From: Phorcus lineatus
Lineage: Eukaryota > Mollusca > Gastropoda > Trochida > Trochidae
Assembly: GCA_921293015.1 (NCBI GenBank)
Contig: OV121082.1
Coordinates: 26,053,497 to 26,117,496, forward strand
Direction: 5' to 3'
DNA: 64,000 nt
The number at the start of each line of letters is the position of its first letter. The first letter of the stretch is position 1. Made by a program: the position numbers and the translations under genes. Of the stretch, positions 10,101 to 59,199 are shown in pieces. A model generated the notes under the pieces. It did not search any database. It worked only from the letters and a program-made list of their open reading frames with translations, and was not told the DNA's origin.

Positions 10101-13100
10101 ATTCAGAATGGTTAAGATAGCAAAAGGCACTACTCCAACACTAGGTCTGACCATGTACCGAGTTTCATAAAATAATACTGAATACATAATAATAATAGAG
10201 AATAGATTTCAAGATTGAGGCAGGAAAAGGTGCCTACACCTCCATTGGCACTAAGGTCAAATTTGTTTTTCATGGAAACCGGAAGAAATAAAACATTCAG
10301 AGTAACCAAAGTAGAAAAAGACAACTCTCCATCTGATCACATACCCAGTCTCATAAAATAATACCGAATTGTGTCCCGAATGCTAAAATTTTGACAGGAA
10401 GAACTGTTTGTTTAAACTATGGAATCAAGGCTTTTACAACTACTCCTTTCAACTTCTCTTCAGAACCATGTTGCAGCCTTATTGATATATACTAATTAAC
10501 GGCACTCATTGCAATAACGAGGTACCATCAACTCTCCATAGAATATTCACAGTAATGGTTCTGTTGCAGGGGTATGCGGGTAACGTCGGGGAGTGTGGCT
10601 CTGGAGAAGGACCCCCAGAACTTGATTGGGATCAGTATTGGGGGTGGGGCTCCCCTCTGCCCCTGCCTCTACGTGGTCCAGGTCTTTGACAACACACCGG
10701 CAGCCAAGGAAGGCTCCCTCGCAGCTGGGGATGAGATTGTTGGGGTCAACGGGCAGTCTGTCAAAGGTCGCACAAAGGTTGAGGTTGCACGTGCAATTCA
10801 AGCAATAAAGGTACATTTAACCATATTGTTTAAATACAAGTGAATGTATAAGTCTTTAGAAAGGAGAATAAAAGTTTTATATAGTTTATGTTATCATATA
10901 TTTATCATTATGTATATGTACCTAAATGAATTCTTTTCAACCTCTAAATTGGTAACAGATAGGAAATAATCATGAGCTCTGAATGTAAGATTGAATAGTT
11001 TGGGAGGGATATGTTCGTGTGAGTATTCATCTAGTACCAGTTCATCTTCTCTCTCATGCCAGGGCACAGTGACCATCAACTACAACAAGCTGCATGCTGA
11101 CCCCAAACAAGGGAAATCCCTCGATATCGGTGAGTCAACTACATCAGGATTCTACTGACCTCAGTCCCAAGAATATTTGCAGGGTTGTATAAAAGAAAGC
11201 CGCTAGATTCATTTGTCGCAAACTTTGTCAACAGAAACACCTTTGACGTTGGATTTAGTAACTGTGATCATGGTAGAGTGATAACAGAGCAGTTGATAGT
11301 TAATCATTGTTTTAAAGGGATCAGGAGTGGTTCAACCTTTTGTTCTTTTCGTAGACAATTAAGGTCTAACCAGACCTGATAAAGGCAATCTGGCATCCAG
11401 CATCTGTCATCAATAGTTTTGAAATAACTGCACCCTCAGAGCTGAAATTAAGTGATGATATAGCTTGCACCTGGGTAATCAGAATTTGTAGATTTTTTAC
11501 TTGAACATCCCTCATATATGGGCGGAGCAAAAATTATTTTAAAATTTGATAAACTTTCTTCTCAAAAAAGCAATTGGCACAGGAGGCTGAAATTTTTAGG
11601 GTAACATTTTTTCTGACATTAAAACTAAATATTTACTTTGGTCTTGACCCCCTTCAAGTATAGGTTGGGTTTCAATGCTGTTGGGTGTCTATTTTCAAAA
11701 ATACCATCAATGCTAGGAATCTCAAATTTTGAAGTTAGAATCGTAATAGGATGGAGACTAATTAAACCTTGTTGGCGTAGGATGCTTAAATTTAAAGTTC
11801 AAAGATTTGTTTTGTGAAGATTATAGTTTGTAGATTTGGTCTTGACTCTTGACCCACCTTAAAATATGGGCGTGACAGGGTACTTACCCTTACATATTTT
11901 GTCAGGTTTATTTTTTATGAGAATATCGTCTTTGTAGGTTTGAGACAAAGATGGGTAAATGCCATTGTCCTACCCCCAAACATTAGAGTATGGCAGGGAT
12001 TCATACGCTGTGGTAGAGTTGCAATTAAAAACGGCTAACCTTGTTGCAAATGTTGTAAAGACAATTCAAATGAGTCCAAGTTCATGTCTGTAGCACAATT
12101 ATTAAGCAAAATATAAACACAAAATGGTCAGCAATTATTTTGTTTATGACTCGGCTCGTGAAGACTGCCCTTACTAACATTGGACCAGGGAAAAGCGGAT
12201 CAAAACCTGAGTTCCTTGCGATATCAATTGCATATTGTCAGCGGTTTAGTTGATGTTAATTTGGGATGGGTGAACAAAGGGGAATGTGTGGAGATGAGAG
12301 TAACGTGAGAAATAATATTTTGCCAATTTAAAGCTTGTGTTTAGTTGTTTTTATGAGTGTTTAGTGCTTAACGAGAGTATTTGCACAAGATACAAAAGAT
12401 CAAATATATGAGAATGTATAAATGAATTAAAATATAGTTTCTGCCTTACTGCTATTATTTTTAAGAATCTTTTTTAATTTTGTACCATGAATGAAAGAAT
12501 GTAATGAGGTTTTATTGAGTTTCTTCCAAGTTTGTGTTAAGACATTGTCTCATCCACTGTCAGTTGACAGGTTTGTGATGTATTTCACCTGGACAACTAA
12601 CGGTGTATATCTTAGTCTTGGACATCAACAATGCAAAGGCTTCTGACCTTAGCACAGCACATGGCTCTCTTTTTTATCTTGGCTGGTTAACTATATTAGT
12701 AATTATTAATCAACATAACTTGCTTAATAAAACTTGTAAAAATATTTTTCTTTTCTATAAATGGGATGTACCATGACTAATGACTGCAGTTGGCTCATAC
12801 AACTTATGTATGTTTCAGTGTTGAAGAAGGTGAAGCACCGTGTTGTAGAGACGATGAATTCCAACACCGCCGATGCTCTGGGTCTTAGCAGGGCCATCTT
12901 GTGTAACGGTAGATACACCTGCAGCACGTCCTCTCCAATCATAGCACCTTTAACTACACATGAAAATAACTCTTGCTTGCTGCTCTATCCAAACTATATA
13001 GCAATGTTCACATGGTTACATGATAATACAACAGACAATTCAAGTCTTCATGAAAATAGGAGAGAATTCCTTTATTGTAAAAATTATCAGTTATTTGAAA

Positions 13101-16100
13101 CATTCGACATATCCTTGCATAATTTGTGTTATACCTGGTCTGTATGTGTATTGGCTGCTGTAGAAGTGCTATAATATTTGTAGTGTGTGTGACTGATTGG
13201 CTTGTGAAGAGTTATAAGACGTTGCATTTTGATTGTGTGTGTTTGACAGATGGGCTTGTTACAAGGGCTATAACATGTTGCAACTTGGTTTTGTGTGTGA
13301 CAGATGGGCCTGTTACAAGGGCTATAAGACGTTGCAACTTGGTTTTGTGCGTGGCAGATGGTCTTGTGAAGGGCAATAAGATGTTGCAACTTGTTATGTG
13401 TGTGGCAGATGGGCTATAAGATGTTGCAACTTGGTTATGTGTGTGGCAGATGGGCTTGTGAAAGGGCTATAAGATGTTGCAACTTGGTTATATGTGTGGC
13501 AGATGGGCTTGTGAAGGGCAATAAGATGTTGCAACTGGTATTGTGTGTGGCAGATGGGCTTGTGAAGGGCTATAAGATGTTGCAACTTAGTTATGTGTGT
13601 GGCAGATGGGCTTGTGAAGGGCTATAAGATGTTGCAACTTGGTTATGTGTGTGACAGATGGGCTTGTGAAGGGCTATAAGATGTTGCAACTTGGTTATGT
13701 GTGTGGCAGATGGGCCTGTTACAAGGGCTATAAGACGTTGCAACTTGGTTATGTGTGTGGCAGATGGGCTTGTGAAGGGCTATAAGATGTTGCAACTTGG
13801 TTATGTGTGTGGCAGATGGGCTTGTGAAGGGCTATAAGATGTTGCAACTTGGTTATGTGTGTGGCAGATGGGCTTGTGAAGAAGCTGGAGGAGATGGAGA
13901 ACACGGGCTACATGTACCAGGGACTCATCGACCAGACCAAGAAGCTCCTCAAGGCAACCTTCGATCTCTCCAAGTCCCATAAAGGTAACCAACAAGGACT
14001 CACTGACCTGAAGCTGAGGTGAAGTCTGATCATGTCATTATCAACTCAGCAGAAACAAGTATTCCAATTTTGTGCAGTACTTTATAGTTCATATGACTTC
14101 TTATGAAGCCTTCTGTTATAGAGATCTTTTTTTTAATGTTTTAGCATTTGGAGAAGTGTTCAACTGTATAGGGATGAGGGAGCCCCAGCCTGCTGCAAGT
14201 GATGCTTTTGGCAAGTTCGGTGAAGCTCACAAGAACATGGAGAAGTTTGCCATCAAAATGTTGAAAACTGTAAAACCGGTCAGTACATTTTGCAGATGTT
14301 TTAGGCTCATGACTTTGTCAACCCATTCAAATTTTCTTCTATGGTGTATGACTAGGCTCAAACTTCTTGATTCATGTGTCATGAATCTTACTTGAGTCGG
14401 AATGGCTGACTTCATCCTTACAGGTGAAGTATGTGTGTATAATCTACTGGGAGGAACTAATGTTTCCCATCTATATAAACTTACTTCTGTCAGGTGTCAT
14501 GGTAAGTAAGATTTATCCTGCATTCAGGTGCTGGGTAGATACTTGTCAGATAACTAAAAATACCGAATTTCAAGCAACCAGGACAATTATAGAATAGAAA
14601 AGAGGAGGCCCTTTTGAAAATAGCTTACATAACCAAGGAATGAGTGAAATGTCTTGATATTCATAATTGTAAAGGCTTTTTAGTTTTACTTGCAACAATA
14701 TTGAACAGTGTGGACAGTCATGTACATGTAAGAGGTATACTTGTACTGTAGCATGACAAAATGAAGAAGGAAATAGACCTCAGAGATTTCAGTACTACTG
14801 CCTGCATTTATTAAACAGTAAATAATGAGAAGGGGGTGCCAATTTTCCAGTGAGTTATAGGGAGAGGGCGTTTGCTGCATCTTGTGCAGAATTGTTATCA
14901 AATTAATTTTCTTTTTTATTTATGTAATGTGTATGTTAACTATGTTGTTCACATTACGTGTTTGACTGACTGCAGATGATCAGCGACCTGAACACATTTC
15001 TGCACAAGGCGGTGCCTGACACCAGACTGACCATCAAGAAGTACCTGGACGCTAAGTTTGAGTACCTGGTCAGTACATCTCGTTATTGGTCATTATGTTC
15101 TTATTACAGTATATTCTAGGGATTCATGTGCTCTTGGTCTGCTCAAGATGCAAGGCACACCTAGGCTTCAGTTTTAAAAAATTCCAAGCTTAAGAGCAGA
15201 ATGATTAAAGACATTGCACTGGTGGGCATGGTAAAAATATTACCAGTATAAGCTATCAGGCAAAGCTGTATGTGAAGTCTAGCTAATGGCTCATAGAGTC
15301 TCATGGTCTCTTGTTGTGCCTTTTGCGGTTGATGTTTCTAGAAGTGAGAGGGTTGTTGTTTCAGTCATACTGCCTGAAGGTGAAGGAGATGGATGATGAG
15401 GAGTACAGCTACGCCGCCCTACAGGAACCACTCTACCGCGTAGAGACCGGCAACTACGAGTACAGGTCAGTCAGCTCACAATTTGGCCGTTAGACACGAG
15501 ACATTATCTGTGTCCATTATTCACACACCAACTGGCACGTAAGCAGACTCGGAAAGTGTTAGCTTAAATTATTCTAGGCACATCTTGTAAAACAAATTCC
15601 ATCAGCTAGTAGATTCTTTTTCAACAGTAACCAGAATGATGATAGTTTCCTCTCTGCATTGATCTCAAAATACCTCATGACTACAAATTGTCTCTCCTGC
15701 AGTTTTGAAATATTAAAAGCCTACAGTCTTTGAAATGAAATCTATTATGCTGCTCTTTCTAACACAGATTATAGATCCCACAAGGCCCCTTTACTCAAGC
15801 TGTCAGGTTCACCTTTGACTCCAATTTGACTTCTTGATCCAATAACATCAAGTAATCACAATGCATATCTGTATATGGCCATCAAGTTTAAGTCAGAAAT
15901 GAAGTTATTTTCAAAACTACTCTTATAACATTTCAATTTTAATGGAACGTGTTGCAGGAATTTGCGTGTTTCATTACTTTATTATTATATCATGATTACT
16001 ATAATGGTATTTATCATTATTGATTATTTTCTTATTATTTTTGTCTGTTTTGGTGTTAAGGAATTTAGAGAGTATTCAACGGATATCACAATCAAATTTG

Positions 16101-19100
16101 AAATGTTATTCAACATACGAGGAAAAGTCAGTAAATTCATAGAAGTGCATTTGACACACAATTGAAGACATCTGACAACAGTTTACAGACATAAATAACC
16201 CAAAAATGAGCATTGTGCGGTTGTCAAGTTTCTCATCAAAGAAGGGGCGAATGTGACGGAAATACATCAGCATGTGACTAATGTGTATGGGAAAGAAGCT
16301 CCTCAATATTCTACTGTTGCACGATGTTCAGCTTAGTTTAAGCATAGACACGTGATCACCTATGACATCATATTAGCAACAGAGGTGGCTTTACGTTAGT
16401 CTTGCTCTGTGTATTCCAGCAGACAGACGTCTTGTCATGCGACGTTGAATCTGACATTAATACTTCATTGCAAATGATAGATAGTGTTTTGTCTCGCATA
16501 TCTTCAGAAGTTTGAAACTTATCAGATCGCCAGAGCGATATTGAAGCTCATTTTGAGAGGAACAATGAAGACTCTGATTGACGGCTGGCGTTTACCGCCT
16601 GAACTTGTAGAAAATGGCCGCCCTGCCAGCACTTGAGCGGAGATATAGACGCCGCAAGCGAGAGAGATATCCAGGGAGATTTCCAAGGCATTAAGGATTC
16701 CCTGCAACGAATTTGACTTCCTACGGAATTGAGGCTAAATGATTCCAGAAGAGGAATCAAGGCATGACAGATCTGTCTACAATGTCGTGAGTAAATCTGC
16801 CAGATATGTGGAAACTTGTTTAAAGGTACTCACGGCGGAGGAAAATCAGTCACAATCGGACGTTTGAGCTACTTTGTTTCTCGTGTTGAAGGCCCACATA
16901 AAGTACCTTCAAGATGAATATGCAGCACTATTAGTGCAAGGACAGTGTGACAACACGACATCTCGTGTTTTTCTAGCTCTACAGTCCAACACGAATGGAT
17001 TTTAGCTAGAATCACTAGAACAGCTACATAACGCAGCAGCCATCTTGGCGATATCGACTTCTAATTTTGGCAATCATCGACCCAAATACAGAGGACGTTT
17101 TACAAACTTAAATCGTGGTAGAGGTAATGCCCGTAATGACTTTTTCTCAACTTTGCGGATTCAACAGGGGTCAACGTGGAGAAGAGCACTCTACCGACGA
17201 TCAACTTTTACTGTGTGCGGTTGTGACACTGATAGGTTGGAGTTACTTCCCTTAGACTGTATACATTTTAGGCAATTTCTCAAAATGTATTGATATTTAA
17301 TTTTGAAATAAATACTTAAAAAGCCACTCCGTGAGTTGTTAGAGTCATATTATGCCAAACTTAATCAATGGTGTCATTTGATCGCAAAGTATAGACTGTT
17401 ACCAAAAAGATACATTATAAAGCTTATTGGTTTTTTTACAGTGACAATATGAAGGAAGAACGTCACCATTATGATAAAAAAACCAGACAGTGGCGTGCGT
17501 AAAATAGTCAAACCTAATTTTGGAGACTTATCTAAAACAGCGAGGAGGATAGTTAGGAGTTGATGTGTTTGTTAGGTTATTCAACTAGTGTCCATGTATA
17601 TTGGACGTGATATCTACACCTCTGTGCATTTATAAGGATGTTTTTAGGTTTTCATGGAAAACCAGTATTTGTCATATACATGTCTTTTGGACATGAAAAA
17701 TTAAGATGTTTTGATTTTATATCACCACATATGACATTTAGGTTCGTATCAAAGGTAAATAATATGTTATGAAAGTCACGGAGTGGCTCTTTAAAACGTT
17801 GTATTTTGAGATCACTGTGACGTAGGTTTGCATAAAGTAGTATCGCAGCTCCTTTGATGAATACCTTGGTCAGGAAGGCTTGTTGAAGCCATTTCAGATG
17901 ATATGGTTGTACAGGTTCAGGGCTCAATCATGTCAGATCATAGAGATATCTTTAGAGTGTGGTATCTCTCAAAGAGGTGTTTGCAACATAATTCATGAGC
18001 ACTTGCACATGTCGAAGGTGTCTGCAAGATGGGTGACACAAAACTTAAATGCATAAGATCGACACCAGAGAATTGAATCCAGTTTTTAGCTCTTGGACAT
18101 CTACAGTGCTGATCCTGATAACTTTAACGCCTGTCTGCTTACAGTTACAGAGGATGAAATGTGGATTCAAACTACACTAACAGGAGCCAACAATGCTGGA
18201 GATCAAGAAGAAGAGGCGCAGCATGTTGACTATTTGAGTTATGCTTCTCATGACAACACACTGCAGTGCACAAAAGTTGTATTGCACAGGCTGCACTTCA
18301 ACAGTGTGGCTTTGAACAACTTAACCATCCCCTATACAGTCCAGATCTGGCCCCAAGCGACTTCTATCTGTTTCGCAATTGAAAATCATACTTTTGTGGT
18401 GCAAGATTTGGCTGCAGCGTTTTCTACTGAGGCATGGCTAATCAGAAGACTTCTACCGCAAGGGCTTGACAGTCTCAAAGTAAAATGGGCAAAGTGCATC
18501 ATGGTCCAAGGAGATTATATTGAAAAAAAAAAATCAGTATCACAATCATTGGCTTCTCTTTTGTATCCACTTTTATGAACTTATTGACTTCCCCCTGTAT
18601 CTGTTTCCAGAGAAAGCATTTTGGAGTGATCATGTCTACTTCAGGTTTTAACTCCTAAGGGTGCGATATGATCTGGTATATTGGTCTGGTAAATCAAACC
18701 AAGGTTAATCTAAAGCAATTTACAATAATTCATTCGGATATTGAGGCAGCTCGACATTGTAGAAAGCAGTCATATATTTTCATTTTTCAAGTACTGAAAA
18801 TCATTGATGTTCAAGCAAAGTCGAGTTTGCCTGCAAACAAACTCGCTGATTGGCTGATTTGAATGATATCACAGGCAAATCTGACAGTTCATGTTATAGT
18901 GCCTGGTGAGATTTATACATGTTAAGTAGTAGAGCATTTCAGATTTCATTTTTATGAGATTGAGATTAATTTCCACTTTTTTAGTTTAAAGTGTCAAGAT
19001 TAAATTTGTAAGTTATGTGAGAACTGTTCACTTATACTATAACAAGCTTTCCCAAAAGCTTTTAATTATAAAGAAAACCTTGTGGTCCACATGGCTGATA

Positions 19101-22100
19101 TGATTATCATCAAAGTCATATGCCTTTACAGACTTGTATTGCGGTGTCGTCAAGAAGCAAGGACAAGATTTGCCAAAATGAGGTCTGATGTACTTGTGAA
19201 GATGGAGCTCTTGGACCAGAAACATGGTGAGTGGAACTGTACTTCATGTTCTCTTTCACCCTAGTGTCATTTTGTACAATGATATCCAGACTAATAGTAA
19301 TGCCTTGCATATTGCCTCACAGCTTTGTATATAAGTGCCCCCTGGGTCACAGCTGTGGCATGGTCAGTCGAGAGTGTCTCTACAGATCTGGAGGGTGTGA
19401 AGCTAACAGTAGAGGCTGGAAGCTTTATTGAAGTAGCCTGATGGTGATGCTAATTTATAGATTTGGTGACCCTGTGACCCTTAGTAATGGCCACAGCGAC
19501 AACACCCTAAAAACCTATTTTCATCTTCTCTTCAAGAAGCAAGAAAGCTCAAACTCTGTGTACAGACTGCTTAGCTCATAAATTTGGTGACCCTGTATAA
19601 GAGGGGATTACGCCCTTCATCTTCTCCAGGCCTAGAAATCTGAAATCTTGTGTCCAGACTCCTTAGCTGATTGGTATTCTGATTTATAGATTTGGTGACC
19701 ACCCAGCAGGCACAAAGACGTCCATTAGACTTCTACCCAAGAATTTTAAAAGATGTCTAAATAAAGTCGAATCTCTTGGACTTGAAAGAAGCCAAGTGGT
19801 TGTTTAAATGTCTATGGTAGAATTTTACAAGACGTCTATCAGTCGCTTATTAGATTTTTATTAGACGGCTCTTAGAAGATTAAATACCTCCATAAGGTAT
19901 TTGATAGACATCTGAAAGACGTTTTGTTTCAGGGCTTCAAACAAAAACCTGTGTTTTGTAGGTCACATTTGAAATTTTTACATGAAAACAGATAGATTTA
20001 TGCACCATATTCCACAATTAAAAACAATATGATTACTTATACTTTTTTAGAGTATGATATGATAGTTTTATTTTATGGGTTTTTCTTATGACAAAGATTC
20101 AAAATATGCAGGCTTAGTGATGTCAATTGTGCCTTGCAAATAAACAAGGGAAAAAACTCAAATAAGATAAAATATTTATTCAATACCAAAATCTATTTTA
20201 TTCACTCAACATATATACAGTAGTAATAATACATAAAATGTTTCCCTATACATGAGTTTAATTCAAACTTTACTTAGAATCAGATTTGTTTTATCATTGT
20301 CTCCAAACTTAAGAGTAAGGCAAAAAGCCCTGAATCGAAACCATTTTCTCCCATCACCTCCACATCTTGAAAGAGCATCCTGAAGACCTCTGCATTCTGT
20401 GCAAATTGTATCCTTGATTGCATCCTTGTAAAAGAATGGTGGAATTATCTGAAAATAAATTGAAACCTTGTTATCTTGACTCTCGATATAAATGATAACT
20501 GCACAAAGACACTAAATGAAACTAATGATAGTAGCCGTTACATTCAAAGACACGCCTGTCGGGTTATTTTTGTGGAAACAAATTTCAAGGGTACATTTCT
20601 GTTTATACAAGTATGTAATTAGTACATGATTTTAAAATAACCCAGTTCAAACATGTTACTGAGGGTAAAATTTGGTTGATTTAAATTTTACATCTAGATA
20701 AATGAGAGTTTAGACTCTGTAGAAGAAGAATGAGCAGTGAAGCCATTTATCAGTGCTACGAGTGTGAAATGCCTTGCTACGGAATTACAAGGCATTGTTG
20801 TTTAGTGTCATAAATTATAAGTAAATGTGGATAATCTATCTATAAATAGAGTTTATTTTTATGATGTTGTAAAATAAGTAAAGGAACGCCTTTTTTCATG
20901 TTATTTCCCCTAAAACAACATGCCAGACTGTAGCCAATAGGCCAGCCTCTATGAGTCAACAATTATGAGAAAGTGTTACTTTTGCAATGAATTAAAATGA
21001 TTATCTGATGATGAAAAATTCCACACTGATTCAGTTTCGCTGCATTTATTAGGTACTTGTATTAATGATATCTCATTTAGTCAAGAATTTATTGGTTTCA
21101 GTCAAAAAATAGAGAAGGCTTTAAATATGTCTACGGACAAAACACTAAACACATGTTCTTAAGGAGCATCACAAAATTATGAGCTGAAAGATAATAATGG
21201 AAGACGTTCTACAATTAGCTGCACGACCATTGTAAACAAAGGAGAGATGCTGACAAATGAGCGTCTAGATTACTGGGCCTGTATTTTCGAAGCTCTCTTA
21301 GTGAGATAGGTGTAAGTAACATACATTAACATTGGCCTACGACTATCTTAGCACTAAGAGAGCTTCAAAATTCTGGACCCTGTCACTGTAAAACAAATTA
21401 GCGTTTCCTTTATACAGAAAAAGTCTTACTGTAAACTAATAACTAAAGAAAGCTTAGGAACGCCTTTCAAGGAAACATCTTTCAAGTTGAAATATCAAAA
21501 CATTTTAATAAAATCTTATGAAAGTACAGGTCCACCTTAAGACATCTATTAGATATTGACTCAACGTCTTGTCTTAGATATGTAGATGGGTACGTTGAAG
21601 ATGTTGGACGTCTAACCCTGGATCTAAACCTAATTTAGATGTCAAAAAGACATGTAGTGCCTGCTTGGCTGTTACCCCTTCTAAGGGCCACAGGAGCCAT
21701 CAAACCTATTTTTATCTTCTTGGGAAAGAGGCCTGGAGAACTGAAAGCTTGGTTGCCGACTCCTTAGCTGATTGCGATCGTAATTCATGAATTAGGACCA
21801 AGTGGCACCATGCCCTAAAAACCTGTTTTATCTTCTCAAGAAGCAAAGGCCTAAAAAGCTGAAAGATTGTGTACAGACTCCTTAGCTGATTGGTATTCCT
21901 AGATTTGGTGACCTTGGTACCCCTGGTAAGGGCCAAAGGAGCCACACCCTAAAAGCCTATTTTCATCTTCTTCTCCAGACACCTCAGGTGAAAGGGATTC
22001 TAATTTATACATTAGGTGACCCTGTGACCCCTCATAAGGGCCGCAGGAGCCACATCCTAAAACCCAATTTTCTTCTTCTTTCTGTGCATCAAGAGGCCTA

Positions 22101-22778
22101 GAAAACTGAAAAGTTGTGTACAGACTCCTTAGCTAATGGGGATTCTAATTTATATATTTGTTGACCCTGTGACCCTTATATATAATTAGGGTCACACCAT
22201 TAAAACCTACCGTTACTCTTGTCCAGAAGAAAAAGCCTTGGCAAACTGAAACCATGTGTATAGACCCCTAAGCTCATGACAATTTGGTGATCCTTTTTAG
22301 ATTTAATTATGAAATAAATCATAGATAGCTGGATGAGCTGAAGAATCAACGGATCTAATTTTTTTGGGGGATGAGAAAAACTATGGGAAGAGGATGATGT
22401 TTCAATCTGCACAGATGGTTTGGGCAGTGTTCATGAGAAGATGTTCTGATGAGACTGACTGCTGGTTGAGTTTGTTGCTTTATTCCCTCTATCTCTCCAT
22501 CTCATGTGTTTCCAGTTCAGGACATAGTGTTCCAGCTGCAGAAGTTTGTGACAGCGATGGCAAAGTATCACAATGACTGCCACAGTGTGATGAAGGAGGC
22601 TGTAGTGTTCCCCATCGAGGTGGACCTGTCCCGCGGCACCTTCACATACGATGTGGATACACGCTACCATGACGGGGAGGACGAGGAGGAGGGGGAGGAA
22701 GTGCGCCCCGAGGACTGTGCGGGGGGTGCAGATGATGACCCACCTCTTGATCTAGGGCCTCTCATCAGCACAGACTGA
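7053..22778 (+). CDS. PICK1: PICK1 (PRKCA-binding protein), PDZ-BAR scaffold
   Basis: Ten coding exons join in frame to 437 residues: 7053-7165, 10570-10810, 11063-11129, 12819-12908, 13868-13984, 14145-14278, 14976-15068, 15365-15465, 19132-19226, 22516-22778. All introns are GT-AG. A PDZ domain (about residues 46-129) has the carboxylate-loop Lys51-Asp52, NLIGISIGGG and the CPC pair Cys68/Cys70. A BAR domain (about 168-381) has conserved stretches such as REPQPAAS and YCLKVKEMDDEEY. An acidic tail (DGEDEEEGEE, 403-412) follows. In the known family, PICK1 dimers bind C-terminal PDZ ligands of receptors and transporters and curve membranes through BAR, acting in vesicle trafficking. The start was chosen as the only ATG giving a phased exon 1. 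The N-terminus is about 24 residues longer than in human PICK1, and the C-terminus ends ISTD. Confidence 0.97.
7166..10569 (+). other. PICK1 intron 1 with dispersed repeats
   Basis: The 3.4-kb intron carries a degenerate repeat at about 7840-8110 with phrases like CTTTGACCCCCC and TAGGCGTGG. Related copies lie near 9370-9480 and in intron 3 (11440-12020). There is a TA microsatellite at about 8105-8125 and fragments of the TACATGAAG repeat at 8230-8660. The open frames at 8830-9214 and 9570-9761 look like chance. Confidence 0.55.
10570..10810 (+). CDS. PICK1: PICK1 exon 2 (PDZ core)
   Basis: Acceptor CTGTTGCAG, donor GTACAT. Encodes most of the PDZ domain, including EKDPQNLIGISIGGG, the CPC zinc-type pair and GDEIVGVNGQSVKGRTKVEVA. 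Ends in phase 0. Confidence 0.97.
11063..11129 (+). CDS. PICK1: PICK1 exon 3 (PDZ end)
   Basis: Encodes GTVTINYNKLHADPKQGKSLDI, the last PDZ strand and linker. Acceptor CATGCCAG, donor GTGAGT, phase 1. Confidence 0.95.
11130..12818 (+). other. PICK1 intron 3
   Basis: Between about 11440 and 12020 there are two or three diverged copies of the intron-1 repeat (CTTTGGTCTTGACCCCCTT, CCTTAAAATATGGGCGTG, CCTACCCCCAAACAT). The rest is AT-rich with nothing recognised. Confidence 0.5.
12819..12908 (+). CDS. PICK1: PICK1 exon 4 (start of BAR)
   Basis: Acceptor TATGTTTCAG, donor GTAGAT. Encodes VLKKVKHRVVETMNSNTADA and then LGLSRAILCN, the highly conserved linker into the BAR domain. Confidence 0.96.
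13173..13867 (+). repeat. 52-bp minisatellite repeating the exon-5 acceptor
   Basis: About 13 to 14 tandem copies of a 52-bp unit fill the 3' end of intron 4. Later copies are nearly identical: the phrase GGGCTATAAG recurs 52 bp apart, for example at 13619 and 13671. Each unit carries a block like GTGTGGCAG followed by ATGGGCTTGTGAA, the same sequence that forms the true acceptor and first bases of exon 5. Early copies at the left edge are more diverged, with TGTTACAAG in place of TGTGAAG. Open frames on both strands in the array are repeat artefacts. Confidence 0.95.
13868..13984 (+). CDS. PICK1: PICK1 exon 5
   Basis: The acceptor is the last copy of a tandemly repeated GTGTGGCAG. Encodes the conserved DGLVKKLEEMEN start and LIDQTKKLLKATFDLSKSHK of the first BAR helix. 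Donor GTAACC. Confidence 0.95.
14145..14278 (+). CDS. PICK1: PICK1 exon 6
   Basis: Encodes AFGEVFNCIGMREPQPAASD and then AFGKFGEAHKNMEKFAIKML with KTVKP. Acceptor ATGTTTTAG, donor GTCAGT, phase 0. Confidence 0.97.
14976..15068 (+). CDS. PICK1: PICK1 exon 7
   Basis: Encodes MISDLNTFLHKAVPDTRLTI and KKYLDAKFEYL of the BAR helices. Acceptor GACTGCAG, donor GTCAGT. The flanking 0.7-kb intron 6 holds nothing recognised. Confidence 0.96.
15365..15465 (+). CDS. PICK1: PICK1 exon 8
   Basis: Encodes SYCLKVKEMDDEEYSYAALQ and EPLYRVETGNYEYR. Acceptor TTGTTTCAG, donor GTCAGT, phase 2. Confidence 0.97.
16214..16334 (+). pseudogene. Mariner transposase N-terminal fragment
   Basis: In PICK1 intron 8 one frame reads VVKFLIKEGANVTEIHQHV then YGKEAPQYSTVARC. 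This is the helix-turn-helix start of mariner-type (HTH_48) transposases. It breaks off after STVAR. It may be the same insertion as the fragment at 17937-18599, split by later insertions or deletions. Confidence 0.7.
16400..17290 (+). pseudogene. Possible gag-like retroelement fragment
   Basis: Around 16890-17140 a broken frame reads HIKYLQDEYAALLVQGQ, VFLALQSNTNG, LEQLHNAAAILAIS and then RGRFTNLNRGRGN. This has the look of a structural ORF of a DIRS-like or similar retroelement, ending in an arginine/glycine-rich tail. Stops and frameshifts interrupt it. The family assignment is a guess from appearance. The remainder of 16400-16890 has no open frame of note. Confidence 0.35.
17316..17794 (-). 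mobile_element. TTAA-flanked TIR MITE, copy 1 (inverted)
   Basis: A 479-bp element in PICK1 intron 8 with ends TTAAAAAGCCACTCCGTGA and TCACGGAGTGGCTCTTTAA. The interior matches the copies at 29360-29841 and 38968-39441 in reverse orientation, for example GGTTTTCATGGAAAACCAGT and TTTGGAGACTTATCTAAAAC. The terminal repeat is AGAGCCACTCCGTGA between TTAA tetramers. This is the most diverged copy, and its small reading frame is broken. Confidence 0.9.
17937..18599 (+). pseudogene. Decayed mariner transposase, middle and C-terminal part
   Basis: Shifting frames give IIEISLECGISQRGVCNIIH, HLHMSKVSARWVTQNLNA, LTVTEDEMWI, then HKSCIAQAALQQCGFEQLNH and YSPDLAPSDFYLFRN. The last is the mariner catalytic C-terminus with its third aspartate (APSD). 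The end reads LDSLKVKWAKCIMVQGDYIE, followed by TTATTGACTTCCCCCTGTA, a mariner-like 3' terminus. Several stops and frameshifts make it non-functional. Confidence 0.85.
19132..19226 (+). CDS. PICK1: PICK1 exon 9
   Basis: Encodes LVLRCRQEARTRFAKMRSDV and LVKMELLDQKH, the last BAR helix region. Acceptor CCTTTACAG, donor GTGAGT, phase 1. It follows the 3.7-kb transposon-filled intron 8. Confidence 0.97.
19446..19700 (+). repeat. Degenerate 130-bp tandem repeat, left part
   Basis: Two to three copies of a unit with phrases TTTGGTGACCCTGTGACCC, GGCCACAG, CACCCTAAAA, CATCTTCT and CAGACTCCTTAGCTGATTGG. The array stops at TTTGGTGACC (19700), where a TIR element is inserted. It resumes at 21669. Confidence 0.8.
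19701..21668. mobile_element. About 2-kb non-coding TIR element in PICK1 intron 9
   Basis: The left end reads CCCAGCAGGCACAAAGACGTC. The right end, read in reverse, is CCAAGCAGGCACTACATGTC. Both ends are rich in GACGTC/AGACGTCTA-type phrases. Removing the element rejoins TTTGGTGACC to CTGTTACCCCT, which restores the consensus of the tandem repeat it interrupts and fixes the insertion point. No transposase frame is visible, so it is non-autonomous. Any target-site duplication is very short or absent. Confidence 0.7.
21272..21382. mobile_element. Small hairpin MITE nested in the TIR element
   Basis: About 110 bp with facing arms TCGAAGCTCTCTTAGTG...GATA and TATC...CACTAAGAGAGCTTC, plus outer ACTGGGCCTG and CTGGACCCTG. 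No coding capacity. Confidence 0.6.
21669..22300 (+). repeat. Degenerate 130-bp tandem repeat, right part
   Basis: About five more copies of the unit seen at 19446-19700 (GGTGACCCTGTGACCCCT, AGGGCCACAGGAGCCACA, CAGACTCCTTAGCTGATTGG). Two further diverged copies lie at about 32580-32840. Confidence 0.8.
22516..22778 (+). CDS. PICK1: PICK1 exon 10 (C-terminus)
   Basis: Acceptor GTGTTTCCAG. Encodes VQDIVFQLQKFVTAMAKYHN, the conserved VFPIEVDLSRGTF, the acidic run DGEDEEEGEE and the end LGPLISTD, then TGA at 22776-22778. Confidence 0.97.
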
Positions 22779-27300: not shown

Positions 27301-29359
27301 GGACTTCCGATGATTCCATCGTGGCTGGAAAAAAATCCAATGTCCATTCCCTAAACGGACCACAACATCGTGTTATTTAAACCGATTATTCCTTTACCTT
27401 GTCTTTGAGTACTCATAATATTTGACTCATAATATTTATAGATAATAATATTATCAATATATAATATAACTGATTTTCCTGATTCCAATTTCAAGAAAGC
27501 AAGCCAATGAAAACGCATTAAAATAATTTTTAGATTTGCTTATTATTCACGAAAATAGGATAACAATTTGTTATAGCGTGTATAATGGATAACTTAATTG
27601 AGATATTTATTTTCAACGAATGTTTTCAATACCATATTTTTCAACAATGAAGTCTGAAACGTGTCATTGAAAATAGGATAGTGGCATACGCACGTTAGTT
27701 TTTGCACGAATTAAATTCCGAAATTAAGAACTTACAAATTCCTAAAATTAATGTTATAGTGTATAATATAACAGAATGATTGATTAATAGATTTACTTCT
27801 TATAAAACACAGACAGCTATATGTCCGTAACAAGTTAAAAAATCTTAAAATCATCTTAAGTCGCTTTATCGCGTAGCCTTTTTTGTCACCATATACATTC
27901 ACAATTGCCTTGACGATAGGGCCGATACAACTTATAAAAACGATCGCAATTCTTTGGAAAACACAGGTAATGTTCAATGAATGTTAAATGCATGTGCTAA
28001 ATGTAAATGTTTGAGAAATATTTACTTTATGTACTATTGCTCGAATTAAAGTCGACTTGTTCCTAAATTTCTCCAACTGGTCTACTCTTGACGCATTAGT
28101 AGAAAGAAAAGTCGTTTGTATGATAGATTTTCAAAAACGATTTGCCTCAAAAGCATCTATGTGGGAATGGCGTTTCACGATACTTTTTGGGGAAAAAAAC
28201 AATTTAGGAAACGCTGCGCCAAATTTAACGGTCACTGTGAACCGGAGACTTTCAACGTAAGAAACATTTCTAGATTTAAAGTCCATGCTATAACTATACT
28301 GCTTTGAAGTTGATTGAACCCTTTTGGCATACTGAACCGAACGTGTTTGCTATTTATCGGCTTCTTGAATTATTAATTGCAAATTGTGTCATTATTTATT
28401 ATTTCAAAGTAGATAATATCTTTTAGGCCACTAACTGATAAGAACTTCATTACAACTTCTTAAACAGATACTCCGTCATTTTCTTGGCATGCATAGTATT
28501 TTGCTTTCTATATAATAGTGTCAATGCACCAATCATGATGATACTTATTCAAAACATCTCACATATTAAAAAAAAAATATCAAATATATGAAAATTATAA
28601 TGTTAGAAACAAAAACAAACACCGAATGTATGTGCTAAAGCCGAAACTACACATACAATTTGCATGAATCGCTGCTTTTTATCTTTATATCGTCACTCTG
28701 CTCGACGAACAGCATTAAAATGCTACTTTCCATCAACAGTCAGTATTTCTCGCTAGACACCAGTAGGATAATTGGTATATTTGACTCCAACTATTCATGG
28801 GTTGAATCTTTAATTTAATTTTAACCTTACGACGTTTCGGAGTATATAATAACTACGTCATCAGATGATAGTTGTTATAAAATCACATTTCGTATACACG
28901 TGTTTCCATATAAAAAATAAATTCTTATCCGCGGCGAGAATCATGCTAATTTCTTATCTGACATTTCAATAATTACAACTACGATGTTTGTCCATATAGA
29001 TTTGAAAACAATATCGGCGGTAAACTCATATCTTTCATCATTTGGCACCAAATCTCACTAAATCATATTTATTGGACAAAATATGTAGATTTATTCCTTG
29101 CCTACCACCTGTTTGTTAGTTATTTAAACATTTATTGTTCTCATTAAAAGAATTATTTTACTTCCGGATTTTTGCGGGTAAATAAAGTGCATACGCATTT
29201 CTTCTAATACGCAAAAGCTACAGTAAATTTGAAATCTTTGCTTTATAATATGACTATTTCTCAGTTAGGCCCTATTCACAATATACATAGGCCAACGGTA
29301 AATTTGCTATATTAATTTATGTCAATCAGTTGTGCACCTTCGCGTTTATCATAAGCCAG
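27301..29359. other. Intergenic, no gene seen
   Basis: AT-rich. The only feature of note is a hammerhead-like core on the minus strand at 28834-28864. The short open frames at 28057-28307 lack splice or protein support. Confidence 0.5.
28834..28864 (-). ncRNA. Degenerate hammerhead-ribozyme-like core
   Basis: Read on the minus strand, CTGATGA is followed after a short AT-rich stretch containing a weak stem (AGT...ACT) by GAAAC and then GTCG. These are the two conserved strands of a hammerhead core. Penelope-like and related retroelements often carry such motifs. The stem II pairing is poor and the cleavage site is not identified, so activity is doubtful. Confidence 0.25.
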
Positions 29360-29841
29360 TTAAAGAGCCACTCCGTGATTTTCATGATATATTATTTACC
29401 TTTGATACGAACCTAAATGCCCTATATGGTGATATAAAATCAAAACATCATAACTGTTCATGCCTAAAGGACATATATATGACAATTACTGGTTTTCCAT
29501 GAAAATATAAAAATTAACAGCCTTATAAATGCAAAGAGGTGTAGATATCACGTCCAATATACGTGGATACTAGTTATATAACCTAACAAACACTATCAAC
29601 TCCTAACTGCCCTCCTGGCTGTTTTAGATAAGTCTCCAAAATTACGTTTGACTATTTGACGCGCGCCATTGTCCGGTTTTCGATCATAATTGCGACGTTC
29701 TACCTTCATATTGTCAATGTAAAAAAAACAGTAAGCTTTGAAATGTGTCTTTTTGGTAGCAGTCGATAATTCGCGATCAAATGACACCACTGATTAAGTT
29801 TGGCAAATATGATTTCAACAACTCACAGAGTCGCTCTTTAA
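29360..29841 (+). mobile_element. TTAA-flanked TIR MITE, copy 2
   Basis: 482 bp between TTAA tetramers, with ends AGAGCCACTCCGTGA and (inverse) AGAGCGACTCTGTGA. The interior is shared with copies 1 and 3. On its minus strand a small frame (29790-29596, no ATG at its head) contains MKVERRNYDRKPDNGARQ and then IVKRNFGDLSKTARRAVRS. The element has no transposase and is presumably mobilised in trans. TTAA target sites are typical of piggyBac-type elements, but the termini do not prove that. Confidence 0.92.
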
Positions 29842-32009: not shown

Positions 32010-32472
32010 TCCCTTGCGACGCTCTGCCACAGTGACGTCATGAACAATGGTTGTATGATGTCACAGACGACAAAAAACGGTAACTCGCACTTAAACAATC
32101 GTTGCAAGGCTAAAGTGATTTGCACATGTGCTTATATTGAAAATATGTCACTGCTTATGATGAACCATATGGGTACTAAAATAATTTATCTACTTCATCT
32201 TAATCAATTCAGTCAAATTCAAATATGAAATGTTTTAGCTCTCCCTTGCGACGCTCTGCCACAGTGACGTCATGAACAATGGTTGTATGATGTCACAGAC
32301 GACAAAATACGGTAACTCGCACTTAAACAATCGTTGCAAGGCTAAAGTGATTTGCACATGTGCTTATATTGAAAATATGTCACTGCTTATGATGAACCAT
32401 ATGGGTACTAAAATAATTTATCTACTTCATCTTAATCAATTCAGTCAAATTCAAATATGAAATGTTTTAGCT
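32010..32472 (+). repeat. Recent 232-bp tandem duplication
   Basis: Bases 32010-32240 and 32242-32472 are the same except for an A to T change (32076 versus 32308), so the duplication is recent. Each copy starts CCCTTGCGACGCTCTGCCAC and holds a full CRE palindrome TGACGTCA (32033-32040 and 32265-32272). The matching 62-residue open frames are a by-product of the duplication. Confidence 0.97.
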
Positions 32473-37975: not shown

Positions 37976-38967
37976 AAAATACTTTTGTTGATTATATTTC
38001 ATTATATCCAAATTATCTTTCTTAAAAGGAAAATATTTTACAAAAAATATGTTTCAGTTATATACCAATAGTAACAAGCAAAGTCGAATCAGATGTGTGG
38101 GTCCCAGGTGAAATCGCTTCAAAATCAGAATGGCAAAATGCATTGATAAAACTGACTCCTAAATAGCAACTATCTAATGTTGACGACATTCGTTATTTAA
38201 AAGGCAAACCTTAGTCCCATACACGTATCTGCAAATGTAGAATTGTGTGTGAAATTGATTGTAATTTACCACTTTAAGACACAGCTTTTCTAATTTCCAC
38301 CCAAGCATTTACATATTCTTTTCCTCGAACCTCTCAAATCTGAACACTTGATAATTTTAGAAATACATATGGCGAATAATTAAGCATCCCTGTATTCAAA
38401 ACTATGTGTGATTCTCTTGGAATGTTATAATAATAAGCCTGGACTTGTCACTCTTCACTGATAAATGTATATGTTGTGAATTATTTCTTCAAAAGAAGGT
38501 TACTCATGGTGACATTTTAATAAATGACTTCAGTTGTAAGGGTAAGAGCTTCATACCATACAACGTCTTTTTCTTATCAAGCAACTTTTTCTTCTGAAAA
38601 ACGAGGGGGTGCTGAACACAATTCCATGAGTGTATTTGAAACAAGGTTTTCTCAATGAAACTGATTTTTTGCTTGATGATAGAGAATGAATGTAGATCAT
38701 TATGGAATGTAGGACAGCAAAGAACATGTTACGTACTCTCCTCGCAAAGCTGTTACTACCACTGATTCAATCTAAATACAGAAATATCATTTTCTGTCTT
38801 TTCTTCGATAGGATCAAAGTGATATCAAACCTGATCCCATGTTTTGTTTTTGAAGTAAATCGATTGATTTAGGAAAGGTTGCCAAACTTTTTTTATCATT
38901 CCCCTCTTCGAACCACTGCGGGCTTACTTCCCAAAAAAATTTGACACTTTTTTCTTCCAAGTTTACT
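37976..38967. other. Intergenic, no gene seen
   Basis: AT-rich spacer between the LINE and MITE copy 3. Nothing recognised. Confidence 0.5.
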
Positions 38968-39441
38968 TTAAAGAGCCACTCCGTGATTTTCATAACATAT
39001 TATTTACCTTTGATACGAACCTAAATGTCATATGTGGTGATATAAAATCAAAACGGCTAAACTTTTCATATTCAAAAGACATATATATGACAAATACTGG
39101 TTTTCCATGAAAATCTAAAAACAGCCTTATAAATACACAGAGGTGTAGATATCACGTCCAATATACATGGATACTAGTTATATATCCTAACAAACACTAT
39201 CAACTCCTAACTGCCCTCCTGTTTTAGATAAGTCTCCGAAATTACGTTTGACTATTTGAGGCGCGCCACTGTCCGGTTTTCGATCATAATTGCGACGTTC
39301 TACTTTCATATTGTCAGTGTAAAAAAAACAATTAGCTTTAAAATGTGTCTTTTTGGTAACAGTCGATACTTCTTGATAAAATGACACCACTGATTAAGTT
39401 TGGCATATATGACTCCAACAACTCACGGAGTAGCTCTTTAA
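38968..39441 (+). mobile_element. TTAA-flanked TIR MITE, copy 3
   Basis: 474 bp between TTAA tetramers, with ends AGAGCCACTCCGTGA and (inverse) AGAGCTACTCCGTGA. It is in the same orientation as copy 2 and very similar to it. The minus-strand frame (39390-39187) again contains MKVERRNYDRKPDSGAPQ and IVKRNFGDLSKT, then diverges by a frameshift. Confidence 0.93.
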
Positions 39442-51113: not shown

Positions 51114-54100
51114 CTGAAATCAGGGAGCCAGAAACTTTCTACATTTGCACAACACTAAAAACACTAAATGTTAATTTTAAAGGTTATTTTCCTCCATATA
51201 AAGTGGTCAATTCCAAAAACTTTCAAGTCATGTAACATCTAGTTGTTCTTCCATAACTAAACATCATTATCTCAATTGTTAATGTGAAAAAAGGAGTAGA
51301 TCTGAATATTCAGTGTTCTCTTAACTGAAAGTGAAGAATACACAAATTATTTAGCAATATCAGCTATTGCCAGAGTCCTTTAACCTTCATCCTTATGAAT
51401 AAATTAAAACAATGATTAGGCAGACAAATAAATAAATCAGAAAATACTTTTGATTTTTAACAAAATTATGTTTATCACAAAGGAGAGATTTAAAACTACA
51501 AACATGCTATCAATGAACAAAAAATCATTTCTCATCAACCTCCTGCCTCCATCTTCTGACTACCCCCTTTGTCATGCACCAATCCCAAATCTACATCAAG
51601 CAGACCCCTGACAATACGCAATGGCAGTAAGAAGGACATCAGGTTTCTATCTGCCTGTCCCTGGATAGTTTGAGCCCATCCACTGTTAGGAAACCGGGTC
51701 TTACTGAGCTCAGACATACACTACACAATTTCTTATCATTTTATGTTTATATATTTTTCTTGATAATTTTTGTGCTACAGTTATGACCACCACATCAATA
51801 TGATTAAATTGACCATTTTACAAAGCTTTCAAAAATGGTTAGGCCTTTTTATTTGCAACCCTGAGATATGGCTAGCATAACAATGCAAGAAAATATGAGA
51901 AAATCAAAATTAAAGTTCTGTAAGTTTAACAATGTAATTCTATGCCGAAAATCAAACTAGATGAGCATTTGGGGGACACTGAAAAAGAAGAGCAGCCCCT
52001 AAACTAAGAGATCCAGCTTTCCCTATTCCGCCTTCTCCACAGCCACAATAAATTTGACATTTTTTTAAAATGTACCATAAAAGACGATTGAGCATTAAAG
52101 TAAAAAAAATACACTTACAACTAGTAGCATTTGGATGACATTTTTCAAGTAATCGTGCTTCTATTGATTTATTTTTGTGGATTTCATAAGTTGCTTCTTT
52201 TTCATTTGACTTTCAATGTGAGCATGCCAAAAAAAGGTTCCCCATGATACTAGTAGGGTTTAGTTGGACTCGAGTCCATTTTCTTGGATTCGAGGACTCG
52301 ACAAAGGGATATAACTCTCATTAAGTTAACTTTGAAAATGTTTACTGATGGCATGATCGCGCAGAGATGACACTAGAACGACATGATGAATAATAGTGAA
52401 TAAACTTGGATACATTGTCGTATCGTCGGAACTTGGACGTGATTGACTTACCAAGTTATCAGTTGAAGATTTAAAATGACATGTGTATGTCTGATCTCTT
52501 AGGTAAATGTCCTTGTTTCAAAATATATTACTCATTTTCACTTGCATTTACATCTTTATTTCTGAAATGTGACAATATTCGAGTCTGAGTCGAGTCTGAC
52601 ACCTCAAGTGCTCGAGTTCAATATTTTGGACTCATGGAAGCCCTACCCATGGGTATAGATAAGAAGTTGTGCACGCGTTCTAAAAACCTTAGAGGAAAAC
52701 ATAATTGCTAAATACAATGTGCTGCGACGGCATCATGAGAGAGTGGACAAAAAATGATAGCAGCCCGACTAAGCATGAGCTTCTAATTACCTAGACACAT
52801 TTTGAGATCAAAGATCCTTACTTGTGTTGGAATCGAACTACAGGGTCCGCCTTCAAGTCAGACATGTCCAATTGCTTCCCCTTAGCAATGACATCTGGGT
52901 GTTTCCTGACAAGAAGCCAGCCAATATGAGCAAAGAAGAAACCACGTTTGGCATTGTGGGGGTCGGCATCTGTCTCTGAATACTTGTGGTGCACACGATG
53001 GTCCCGGCTCCACTCAAATATAGAGTTCTGCAACATAAACAGGAGGTTGAACATGCTCCTTCTCACTCCTCACTCACCCTCAACCCACTCTCAACCCTCT
53101 CTCAATCATCTCCCACCCAACTCTCAACTCTGAGGACAACAAGGTAGAGACCTCTCTCTATGTACATGTCTTAAGCCTATCTCTGATGTTCTGAGGACAA
53201 GATAGAAGCCTCTCTCTGTGTACATGTATTTAAGCCTATCTCTGATGGTGTTCTGAGGACAACAAGGTAGAAGCCTCTCTCTCTGTGTACATGTATTTAA
53301 GCCTATCTCTGATGGTGTTCTGAGGACAACAAGGTAGAAGCCTCTCTCTGTGTACATGTATTTAAGCCTATCTCTGATGGTGTTCTGAGGACAACAAGGT
53401 AGAAGCCTCTCTCTGTGTACATGTATTTAAGCCTATCTCTGATGGTGTTCTGAGGACAACAAGGTAGAAGCCTCTCTCTGTGTACATGTATTTAAGCCTA
53501 TCTCTGATGGTGTTCTGAGGACATCAAGAGAACCCACTTGAAATGCGGACGACTCCATGACTGCTAGCAGGATGCGGAGAGGCAACTTAGCCTTGTAGGT
53601 GCGATGAGCCCAGAGTCTGTGGGCACCGGCCGTCACACCAACACCAGAACACCAGTACATGAACAGAGCTGAAAAGGAAACATACTTAGGATTCATAAGA
53701 AGCACATGTGCAAAATCTAGACTTTGTTATTGTTTGAACAGATGTCTCTCCTTCACAGAATTCTATACAAAATCTCTGAAAAATACTACTGTTAAACACC
53801 ATGAACTTCGTCAGTAAACTTTTCCTATTTCATTTAACTCTACAGTTTTTATTTTAAAAAAATATTCAGAATTCACAGTGATTTAAAATGGAAATTCATA
53901 AACATCTGATGTCTAGTCAAAGACCTGTCTCTAGTCACTGACGATTTCAACAAATGATGGAATCCAAGTCACATTTATTTCAGTTTTAGTTAGGATGTAC
54001 ATGTTGCATTGGAATCGAGTCAAGATATAGGTGGTTTCATGAAACAACGGTAGAACTTCTATATGAAACCAATGCTTTTAACTTGAGGTATTATACCTAA

Positions 54101-58251: not shown

Positions 58252-59110
58252 CTAAGCGGTTATATCACTTGGAATGTCAGCTGGTAATACTGACGTCAGG
58301 GATGGTGCCAAATCTGAGGAGTAGGGTGGATGCGGAAGAATTTCAAAGCCACATTCGCTTGCTGCAATGAAAGCAACATGTGCTGTGTGAACAGGGGCGT
58401 TGTCCTGAAGGAGCAGCACCCTGAGCTTCCCTCGCCGCTTGACCATGATGGCTGCCCTTAATTGCCTCAATTCATTAGCATAATATGTTTATATAGTTTT
58501 GCCCTTCTCTAAGTTATCTATCATGATGATACCACTGCTATGCAAGAAAACGAGGCCATCTCCTTTCCGGCAGATGGAACGGCCTTAAAATCTTTTTTAA
58601 GGCCGGGGAATTGGCATTCCTCCACTGTTTGCTTTGGTTTTTGGGTCAAAGTGATGTACCCACGTCTCGTCCTGGGTCTCTAATCTTTTCAGGAAAGTAT
58701 CCCTGTCTCCCCTGAATCGAGTCAAACGTTCCTTTGAAATGTCCAGGCGTTTCTGTTTCTGGTCACCATTCTTGGCACCCATCTTGCAGAAAGCTTGCTC
58801 ATATGAATAACATCTGTCATTATTGTCGTTACTGATGCCCAGTGTCTCAGCAATGTTATTGTCAGTCTGCAAGCACCATGTCAACAGCATCAACTTGATC
58901 ATCACTGGTGGAGGTTTTTGGCCGACCAGACCTGGCATCATCTTCAACACTCTGCCGGCCACGTTTAAAGTCATCAATCCACTTGGCAACTGTGGAGAAT
59001 GCAAGGGACTCCTCATCCAATGTATCAACCATGTCTTCATGGATTTCCTGTGCAGACATTCCTTTTCTGAACAAATACTTGATGACTGCACGCTTTTCGA
59101 CATAATTCAT
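58252..59110 (-). pseudogene. Decayed mariner transposase
   Basis: The minus strand starts at 59110 with MNYVEKRAVIKYLFRKGMSA and KWIDDFKRGRQSVEDDARSG (HTH domain). It shifts frame near 58865 into NNIAETLGIS, KERLTRFRGDRDTFLKRL and the first catalytic motif DETWVHHFDPKTKA. After further breaks it continues LLLQDNAPVHTAHVAFIAA (second aspartate) and PHPPYSSDLAPS. The third catalytic aspartate, expected right after APS, is replaced (CTG, Leu) and the downstream sequence is not mariner. The element is 3'-truncated and dead. Confidence 0.9.
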
Positions 59111-59199
59111 TTTCCAGTTTCTTCACCACTTCGAACTTTGGGATGTAACATCTCGAAAACTACTCTACGGATGGTTGCAATAGCAAGCTTATAAATATT

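Follow-up and report, generated by a model that had tools for sequence, protein, structure and literature searches.

A minisatellite of repeated splice acceptors in intron 4 of PICK1 and similar arrays at splice donors of the neighbouring TSC2 gene

Intron 4 of a PICK1 gene in the window (the whole stretch of 64,000 nucleotides that was analysed) contains a minisatellite in which the acceptor of exon 5 is repeated many times, which raises the question of which acceptor is used and what would follow from the use of an upstream copy. The gene had been recognised as PICK1 in the original prediction, and the protein encoded by its exons bears this out. When joined in frame, the exons give matches to the Pfam domains Arfaptin (1.3e-75; residues 100-335 of the joined protein) and PDZ (6.3e-12), and the solved structure nearest to the joined protein is the PDZ domain of PICK1 (3.2e-41). 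A search of the genome with the PICK1 protein gave ten matches, nine of which lie at the window locus, in nine stretches without stops; the tenth is a weak match to a PDZ stretch elsewhere (42% identity). A single locus was thus matched, and no retrocopy or intronless copy, which could record the junction used, was reported in this genome search. Exon numbers follow the original prediction, and the exon 4/5 boundary was placed by protein homology and reading frame. The features of the locus are listed below (a slash marks a splice boundary).

10570..22778, + strand: PICK1 gene as found, nine exons, with PDZ and arfaptin/BAR domains; first exon not located
12819..12908, + strand: PICK1 exon 4, ending ...ILCN G, phase 1; donor GTAGAT at 12909
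13163..13209, + strand: degenerate 5'-most (fourteenth) unit copy, AG lost (ACTG/ATTGG), read directly
13184..13881, + strand: acceptor-side minisatellite (mirage), intron tail of ~38 nt and exon 5 head of up to 14 nt
13250..13816, + strand: 12 decoy acceptors, any one of which, if used, gives a premature stop
13250, 13304, 13358, 13409, 13450, 13503, 13554, 13606, 13658, 13710, 13764 and 13816, + strand: first exonic bases of the decoys
13868..13984, + strand: PICK1 exon 5, 117 nt, phase 1-1; donor GTAACC at 13985

The array occupies positions 13163-13881 (~720 bp) and consists of units of 41-54 bp, each made up of the last ~38 nt of intron 4 followed by up to 14 nt of exon 5. The commonest intron part is GGCTATAAGATGTTGCAACTTGGTTATGTGTGTGGCAG and the exon 5 head is ATGGGCTTGTGAAG. 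Tandem Repeats Finder reported the array in two parts, at 13184-13415 (period 54, 4.4 copies) and at 13411-13881 (period 52, 9.0 copies, 94% matches). The pattern G[AG]CAGATGG occurs in 13 copies from 13245 to 13871, at spacings of 54, 54, 51, 41, 53, 51, 52, 52, 52, 54, 52 and 52 bp, so that 13 CAG/ATGG acceptors are present: 12 decoys and the true site at 13868. The original prediction of an array at 13173..13984, with about 13 units carrying the same acceptor block, therefore stands in outline and needs two corrections. The left edge lies about 10 bp earlier, at about 13163, and the complete acceptor string is exact in some units only, since the 20-nt motif GTGTGGCAGATGGGCTTGTG is found unchanged in 7 of the 13 copies, the true one included. 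As predicted, the copy at 13868 alone runs on into coding sequence (DGLVKKLEEMENTG...). A search for the motif in the 957.8-Mb assembly reported seven forward matches, all of them within the PICK1 array, and none for the reversed control pattern. Over positions -20 to +3, four of the 12 decoys are identical to the true site and three more differ by one base. The exon stub is identical to exon 5 over 13-14 nt in seven decoys and over 4-10 nt in the other five. The AG-free stretch before the acceptor measures 27-30 nt in 11 of the 13 copies (37 and 14 nt in the other two), which suggests that the branch point of every copy would probably lie inside its unit or nearby. Rfam gave no matches at the gathering threshold over the window.

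Tandem copies of intron-exon boundaries are called 'mirages', a class whose name was coined for Adh3 of amphioxus and later applied to globins, TnC and PGBD5 as well (excerpts of PMC3087553 and PMC3902484). In the structural features tested, the PICK1 array is a mirage. Its units lie across a real intron-exon boundary, and CAG is kept in 13 of the 14 unit copies, the true one included, and lost in the 5' copy. Inner copies are alike (unit 13 is matched exactly by units 10 and 12) and the edge copy is divergent (82% for unit 1, gaps ignored); divergence rises weakly with the distance between units, and this correlation is not significant (reached in 581 of 5000 permutations). As far as the excerpts describe them, the amphioxus mirages (Adh3, BflGb6, BflGb9, TnC, PGBD5) likewise consist of tandem units spanning a boundary, often with AG or GT kept, and both boundary types are represented. 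Adh3 units measure 10-72 bp, a range that includes the PICK1 unit, and concerted evolution from which the boundary copy is left out was counted as common to the amphioxus mirages and the PICK1 array. BflGb6 is on the acceptor side, as in PICK1, and is described with haplotypes of six and three units; its units of 150-160 bp in 3-6 copies differ from the ~52 bp and 13-14 copies of PICK1. The PICK1 array itself was read from one haplotype, and the assembly has it at a single locus. A further difference concerns the host and not the structure. The mitochondrial contig (19,115 bp, all but about 6 kb read) carries cox3-nad3-nad2-cox1-cox2-atp6 (start) on one strand and nad1 on the other (cox1 found by search, the rest by eye), and its COX1 reads in the invertebrate code (code 5), with 16 TGA and 14 ATA codons. 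Such a gene order is shared by many molluscs, among them chiton, abalone and octopus, and by some other lophotrochozoans, but not by amphioxus; by this comparison, the host is not a cephalochordate and is probably a mollusc. Going by the described cases, the host lineage appears to be new for the class, and a search covering part of the literature found no relevant report of such splice-site arrays in molluscs.

Related arrangements are known from other organisms. Human segmental-duplication repeats (PMC2812944, in part) resemble the PICK1 array in having minisatellite units at exon-intron boundaries, and are linked there to changed splicing, with 27 intron modifications in recently duplicated genes checked by transcripts; PICK1, in contrast, matched one locus and is read from DNA. 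The intron gain in potato RdRp, as excerpted from PMC4974935, also involves a tandem duplication that spans the junction between an intron and its downstream exon. There, one duplication made a new intron, whereas PICK1 has many copies with weak internal donors.

Turning to the origin of the array, the capture of an exon edge in the repeat, as originally proposed, is evident from units that span the end of intron 4 and the start of exon 5. Two findings support growth by slippage or unequal exchange: the most divergent copies sit at the 5' edge, and a 54-bp variant recurs at units 2, 3 and 11. The rise of divergence with distance adds little, being weak. Direct reading showed that the left flank (GTAGAAG) and the exon edge (GTGAAG) have GAAG in common, as would be expected if the first tandem duplication arose at a short repeat, although a four-base match is weak evidence. 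Selection on AG could not be demonstrated, as many columns of the unit are without variation. An assembly artefact is unlikely because the units are not uniform, no exact repeat inside the array (~720 bp in total) is longer than 93 bp, and the locus sits inside a 69.65-Mb contig. Nearby arrays of the same kind but of unrelated sequence (see below) also argue against an artefact or an inflated copy number. One amphioxus mirage does seem to be aberrantly assembled in the genome draft (PMC3087553, in part); for PICK1 we give such an explanation a slight chance at most.

To what extent the decoys matter depends on the reading frame that they open. Frame analysis indicated that all 12 lead to an early stop in the mRNA. 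From the acceptor one unit upstream (13816) the stop comes after 55 codons, at TAA 13980-13982, so that the expected frameshift and stop hold and the expected length of about 60 codons does not. From two units upstream (13764) it comes after 24 codons at the TAA at 13835, in the next unit, as had been foreseen. The ten acceptors further upstream differ in where the stop falls; the four most 5' ones share the frame of exon 5 but run into a stop at TAA 13417. Stops that lie upstream of later exon junctions are known to trigger nonsense-mediated decay, and because later exon junctions follow the decoy stops, decay of such transcripts would be expected.

We regard it as probable that the array is a near-neutral mirage whose final acceptor receives most of the splicing. 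Tandem duplication of ~52 bp spanning the junction of intron 4 and exon 5 would have founded it, perhaps by slippage at the shared GAAG, and the copies would then have been amplified and homogenised. U2AF and U2 snRNP may bind several of the acceptor copies, while splicing, guided by exon definition, would finish mainly at the last one. Rare use of an upstream copy would open a frame with an early stop and end in removal of the transcript by nonsense-mediated decay. The array would thus be tolerated baggage of variable copy number and not a regulatory device.

The last acceptor most likely wins because it is the only copy with a real exon and a good donor after it. The 23 bases around the acceptor are the same in the last copy and in the four best decoys, so that a model reading that stretch alone cannot separate them and the choice must come from the wider context. 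Scored with an approximate matrix, no donor-like GT of the array exceeds 0.61, while the exon 5 donor reaches 3.26. The donor argument is nevertheless weak, since with the same approximate matrix the best GTs of the array outscore the real exon 4 donor, which at 0.32 is the lowest of the eight PICK1 donors scored; donor scoring is therefore a weak guide. Exon definition alone need not exclude the decoys either, since exons starting from decoys one to four units upstream would be 169-327 nt long, which is an ordinary size. Two other ways in which the array could act were considered and rejected. RNA structure hiding the decoys is not indicated, as the array folds no better than shuffled sequences (z +1.38; 19 of 20 shuffles at least as good). 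Micro-exons inside the units, using CTT/GTGAAG donors, are unlikely, as their GT is too weak to rank among the top 12 of the 83 GTs and would leave an intron of 44 nt.

Several of these observations would also fit a leaky or poison array, in which upstream acceptors take a sizeable share, the stop-bearing transcripts are degraded and the length of the array sets PICK1 output. A premature stop from each of the 12 decoys, the perfect match of four of them to the true 23-mer and an exon 4 donor that ranks last among the eight and scores below the best GTs of the array are all in line with it, while the lack of a full exon behind any decoy and the weakness of the GTs in the array speak against it.

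Experiments on duplicated sites bear on both readings. Reed and Maniatis reportedly described duplicated 3' splice site substrates in 1986. In the excerpted part of PMC5389562, beta-globin substrates carried two copies of a 3' splice site, with 14, 55 or 205 nt of exon after the upstream one, and were spliced exclusively to the distal site; the same passage mentions earlier reports that the length of the proximal exon matters. These substrates are like PICK1 in that part of an exon follows the upstream acceptor (14 nt in one construct) and the full exon the distal one, but they are engineered, human and carry one decoy, whereas PICK1 presents twelve decoys in a natural series. As an upstream exon of 205 nt caused no shift, the globin test favours the distal copy but leaves the role of the short stub unproven, and a choice that is independent of stub length is a point for leakage. 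Splicing of the duplicated-site substrates was also very inefficient in vitro (PMC5389562, in part), which by analogy suggests a cost of such a duplication and would likewise suit a leaky array. For the amphioxus mirages, RT-PCR suggests that regular splicing is undisturbed, according to the part of PMC3087553 that reports it. By analogy, the amphioxus mirages and the duplicated globin sites together favour the last acceptor.

The IFI6 gene provides the opposite example. Turri is said to have described the IFI6 (6-16) minisatellite with multiple splice donors in 1995. As in PICK1, a minisatellite repeats a real splice site beside its exon, and in IFI6 two downstream repeat units serve as donors (excerpt of PMC4526556), which supports leakage. 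The IFI6 array is on the donor side and its downstream copies are used in mRNA, whereas the PICK1 array is on the acceptor side and known here from DNA alone. On balance we consider leakage with an effect on PICK1 output unlikely. UG sequences are bound by TDP-43/CELF proteins, and the UG-rich units (UGUGUGUGGCAG) might recruit such UG-binding repressors, or out-compete the true site, so that exon 5 is skipped and a PICK1 protein lacking 39 arfaptin residues is made. The frame would be preserved (117 nt, phase 1-1), but part of the arfaptin domain (residues 100-335) would be lost, and a skipping switch of this kind is in our view very unlikely. PICK1 offers a natural series of twelve decoys, each with up to 14 nt of exon, for studying the disregard of equal nearby sites by the spliceosome, which is often studied with built constructs. 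Array length variants, if they exist, would form a graded experiment.

To place the PICK1 array among the repeats around it, tandem arrays were analysed in the window together with 100 kb on each side (264 kb). Arrays with a period of at least 10 cover 14.2% of this neighbourhood, and 53 of the 82 exceed 100 bp. These 53 were screened for adjoining exons by eye, using the flanking open frames, so that the number of boundary arrays found is a lower bound. Downstream of PICK1 lies TSC2, the joined exon translations of which match solved tuberin (1.9e-115) and the Pfam domain Tuberin (1e-58). Four TSC2 exons run directly into arrays whose units hold the last bases of the exon and its donor. Copies were counted by loose patterns, and a few steps are irregular or multiples.

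L020:5497-6005 (own genome C2:26162993-26163501): TSC2 donor mirage ...TTCAGACAG/GTAACC (..SVLPSFRQ), 42-bp steps, 12 copies by the loose pattern, 9 exact
L022:6767-7617 (own genome C2:26184263-26185113): TSC2 donor mirage ...CTCCATG/GTGAGT (..LCQCLCSM), 33 bp, 25 copies by the loose pattern, 16 exact
L023:7126-8181: TSC2 donor mirage ...TTTCTCCG/GTCAGT, 37-38 bp, 25 copies by the loose pattern, 15 exact
L023:9261 to L024:822: TSC2 donor mirage ...AAAGTCAG/GTATGG, 32 bp, at least 32 copies by the loose pattern, 32 exact

With four donor-side mirages in TSC2 beside the acceptor-side one in PICK1, arrays of this type recur in the host genome. A fifth TSC2 array (56 bp, L024:9697 to L025:348) starts 5 nt into the intron after the exon ending ..KMGTIK and abuts the donor without containing it. 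All five TSC2 cases are thus at donors (four spanning, one abutting) and the PICK1 case is at an acceptor. The block of 42-bp units is found again ~10 kb further on, before the next TSC2 exon found (L021:6343-6851), and between the two blocks lies an open frame of 1238 aa that was judged by eye to be retrotransposon-like. Reading on from the exon, all GT donors counted in the 42-bp array (11 of 11) and in the 33-bp array (24 of 24), with the true donor among them in each case, leave an open frame that contains no stop, and use of a downstream donor in the 33-bp array would add in-frame repeats of 11 residues. In the 32-bp array, 36 of 38 donors meet a stop. Judging from these frames, such arrays could lead either to decay of the kind expected for the PICK1 decoys or to the insertion of peptides in frame.

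A null model with founding units placed at random within the gene was used to ask whether boundaries are preferred. For TSC2, with 24 exons (some ends approximate), 15 arrays and unit length capped at 70, it gave a mean of 0.63 boundary-spanning arrays and at least four in 0.275% of 20,000 trials, where four were observed. With one array each, PICK1 and a desaturase gene have expectations of 0.06 and 0.08 under this null; PICK1 has one boundary-spanning array and the desaturase gene none. Because the test was designed after the arrays had been seen, unit length was capped and arrays cover 25% of TSC2, the excess in TSC2 is a lead and not proof. Tentatively, and with more doubt than confidence, the exon-intron boundaries of this lineage may be favoured birthplaces of minisatellites through a duplication process linked to boundaries, and mirages may be frequent genome-wide (5 in 264 kb, four of them at TSC2 donors). 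If so, they would create series of near-identical splice sites. Leakage at these would either trigger decay, as proposed for PICK1, or, with units that are a multiple of three and without stops, such as the 42- and 33-bp units of TSC2, could insert repeated peptides and so open a way to new protein repeats and introns. The mirage class is already known, though rarely described, and its recurrence in the neighbouring TSC2 gene is the part most worth following: the four boundary arrays suggest that mirages are not confined to amphioxus, and the birth of minisatellites at splice sites could be measurable genome-wide as a source of intron and protein change.

Other arrays near exons were also noted. 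On the - strand at window positions 53129-53528, a 65-bp array fills most of an intron of the desaturase gene (a stearoyl-CoA-type fatty-acid desaturase), from about 9 nt past the exon end, and its units hold the acceptor-like CCTTGTTGTCCTCAG/AAC. It was considered as a second mirage of the window and rejected, since its units have the acceptor-like CCTCAG/AAC without exon sequence. At L028:8630-9820 (own genome C2:26032126-26033316), 28 copies of a 43-bp unit stop about 9 nt short of the acceptor of an exon with a zinc-dehydrogenase domain.

The window also contains three copies of a dispersed repeat, at 17652-17927 (- strand), 29302-29502 (+ strand) and 38868-39107 (+ strand), with a similar translation (LRDFH, N or D, ILFTFDTNLN), an apparently recent 232-bp tandem duplication at 32010-32472 (two copies, 99% matches), and a broken mariner-like transposase remnant, recognised by eye, on the - strand at 58255-59122. 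In the mitochondrial genome, a run of almost pure (TA)n measuring about 2.8 kb lies near cox3 (mitochondrial contig, L037:2999-5886).
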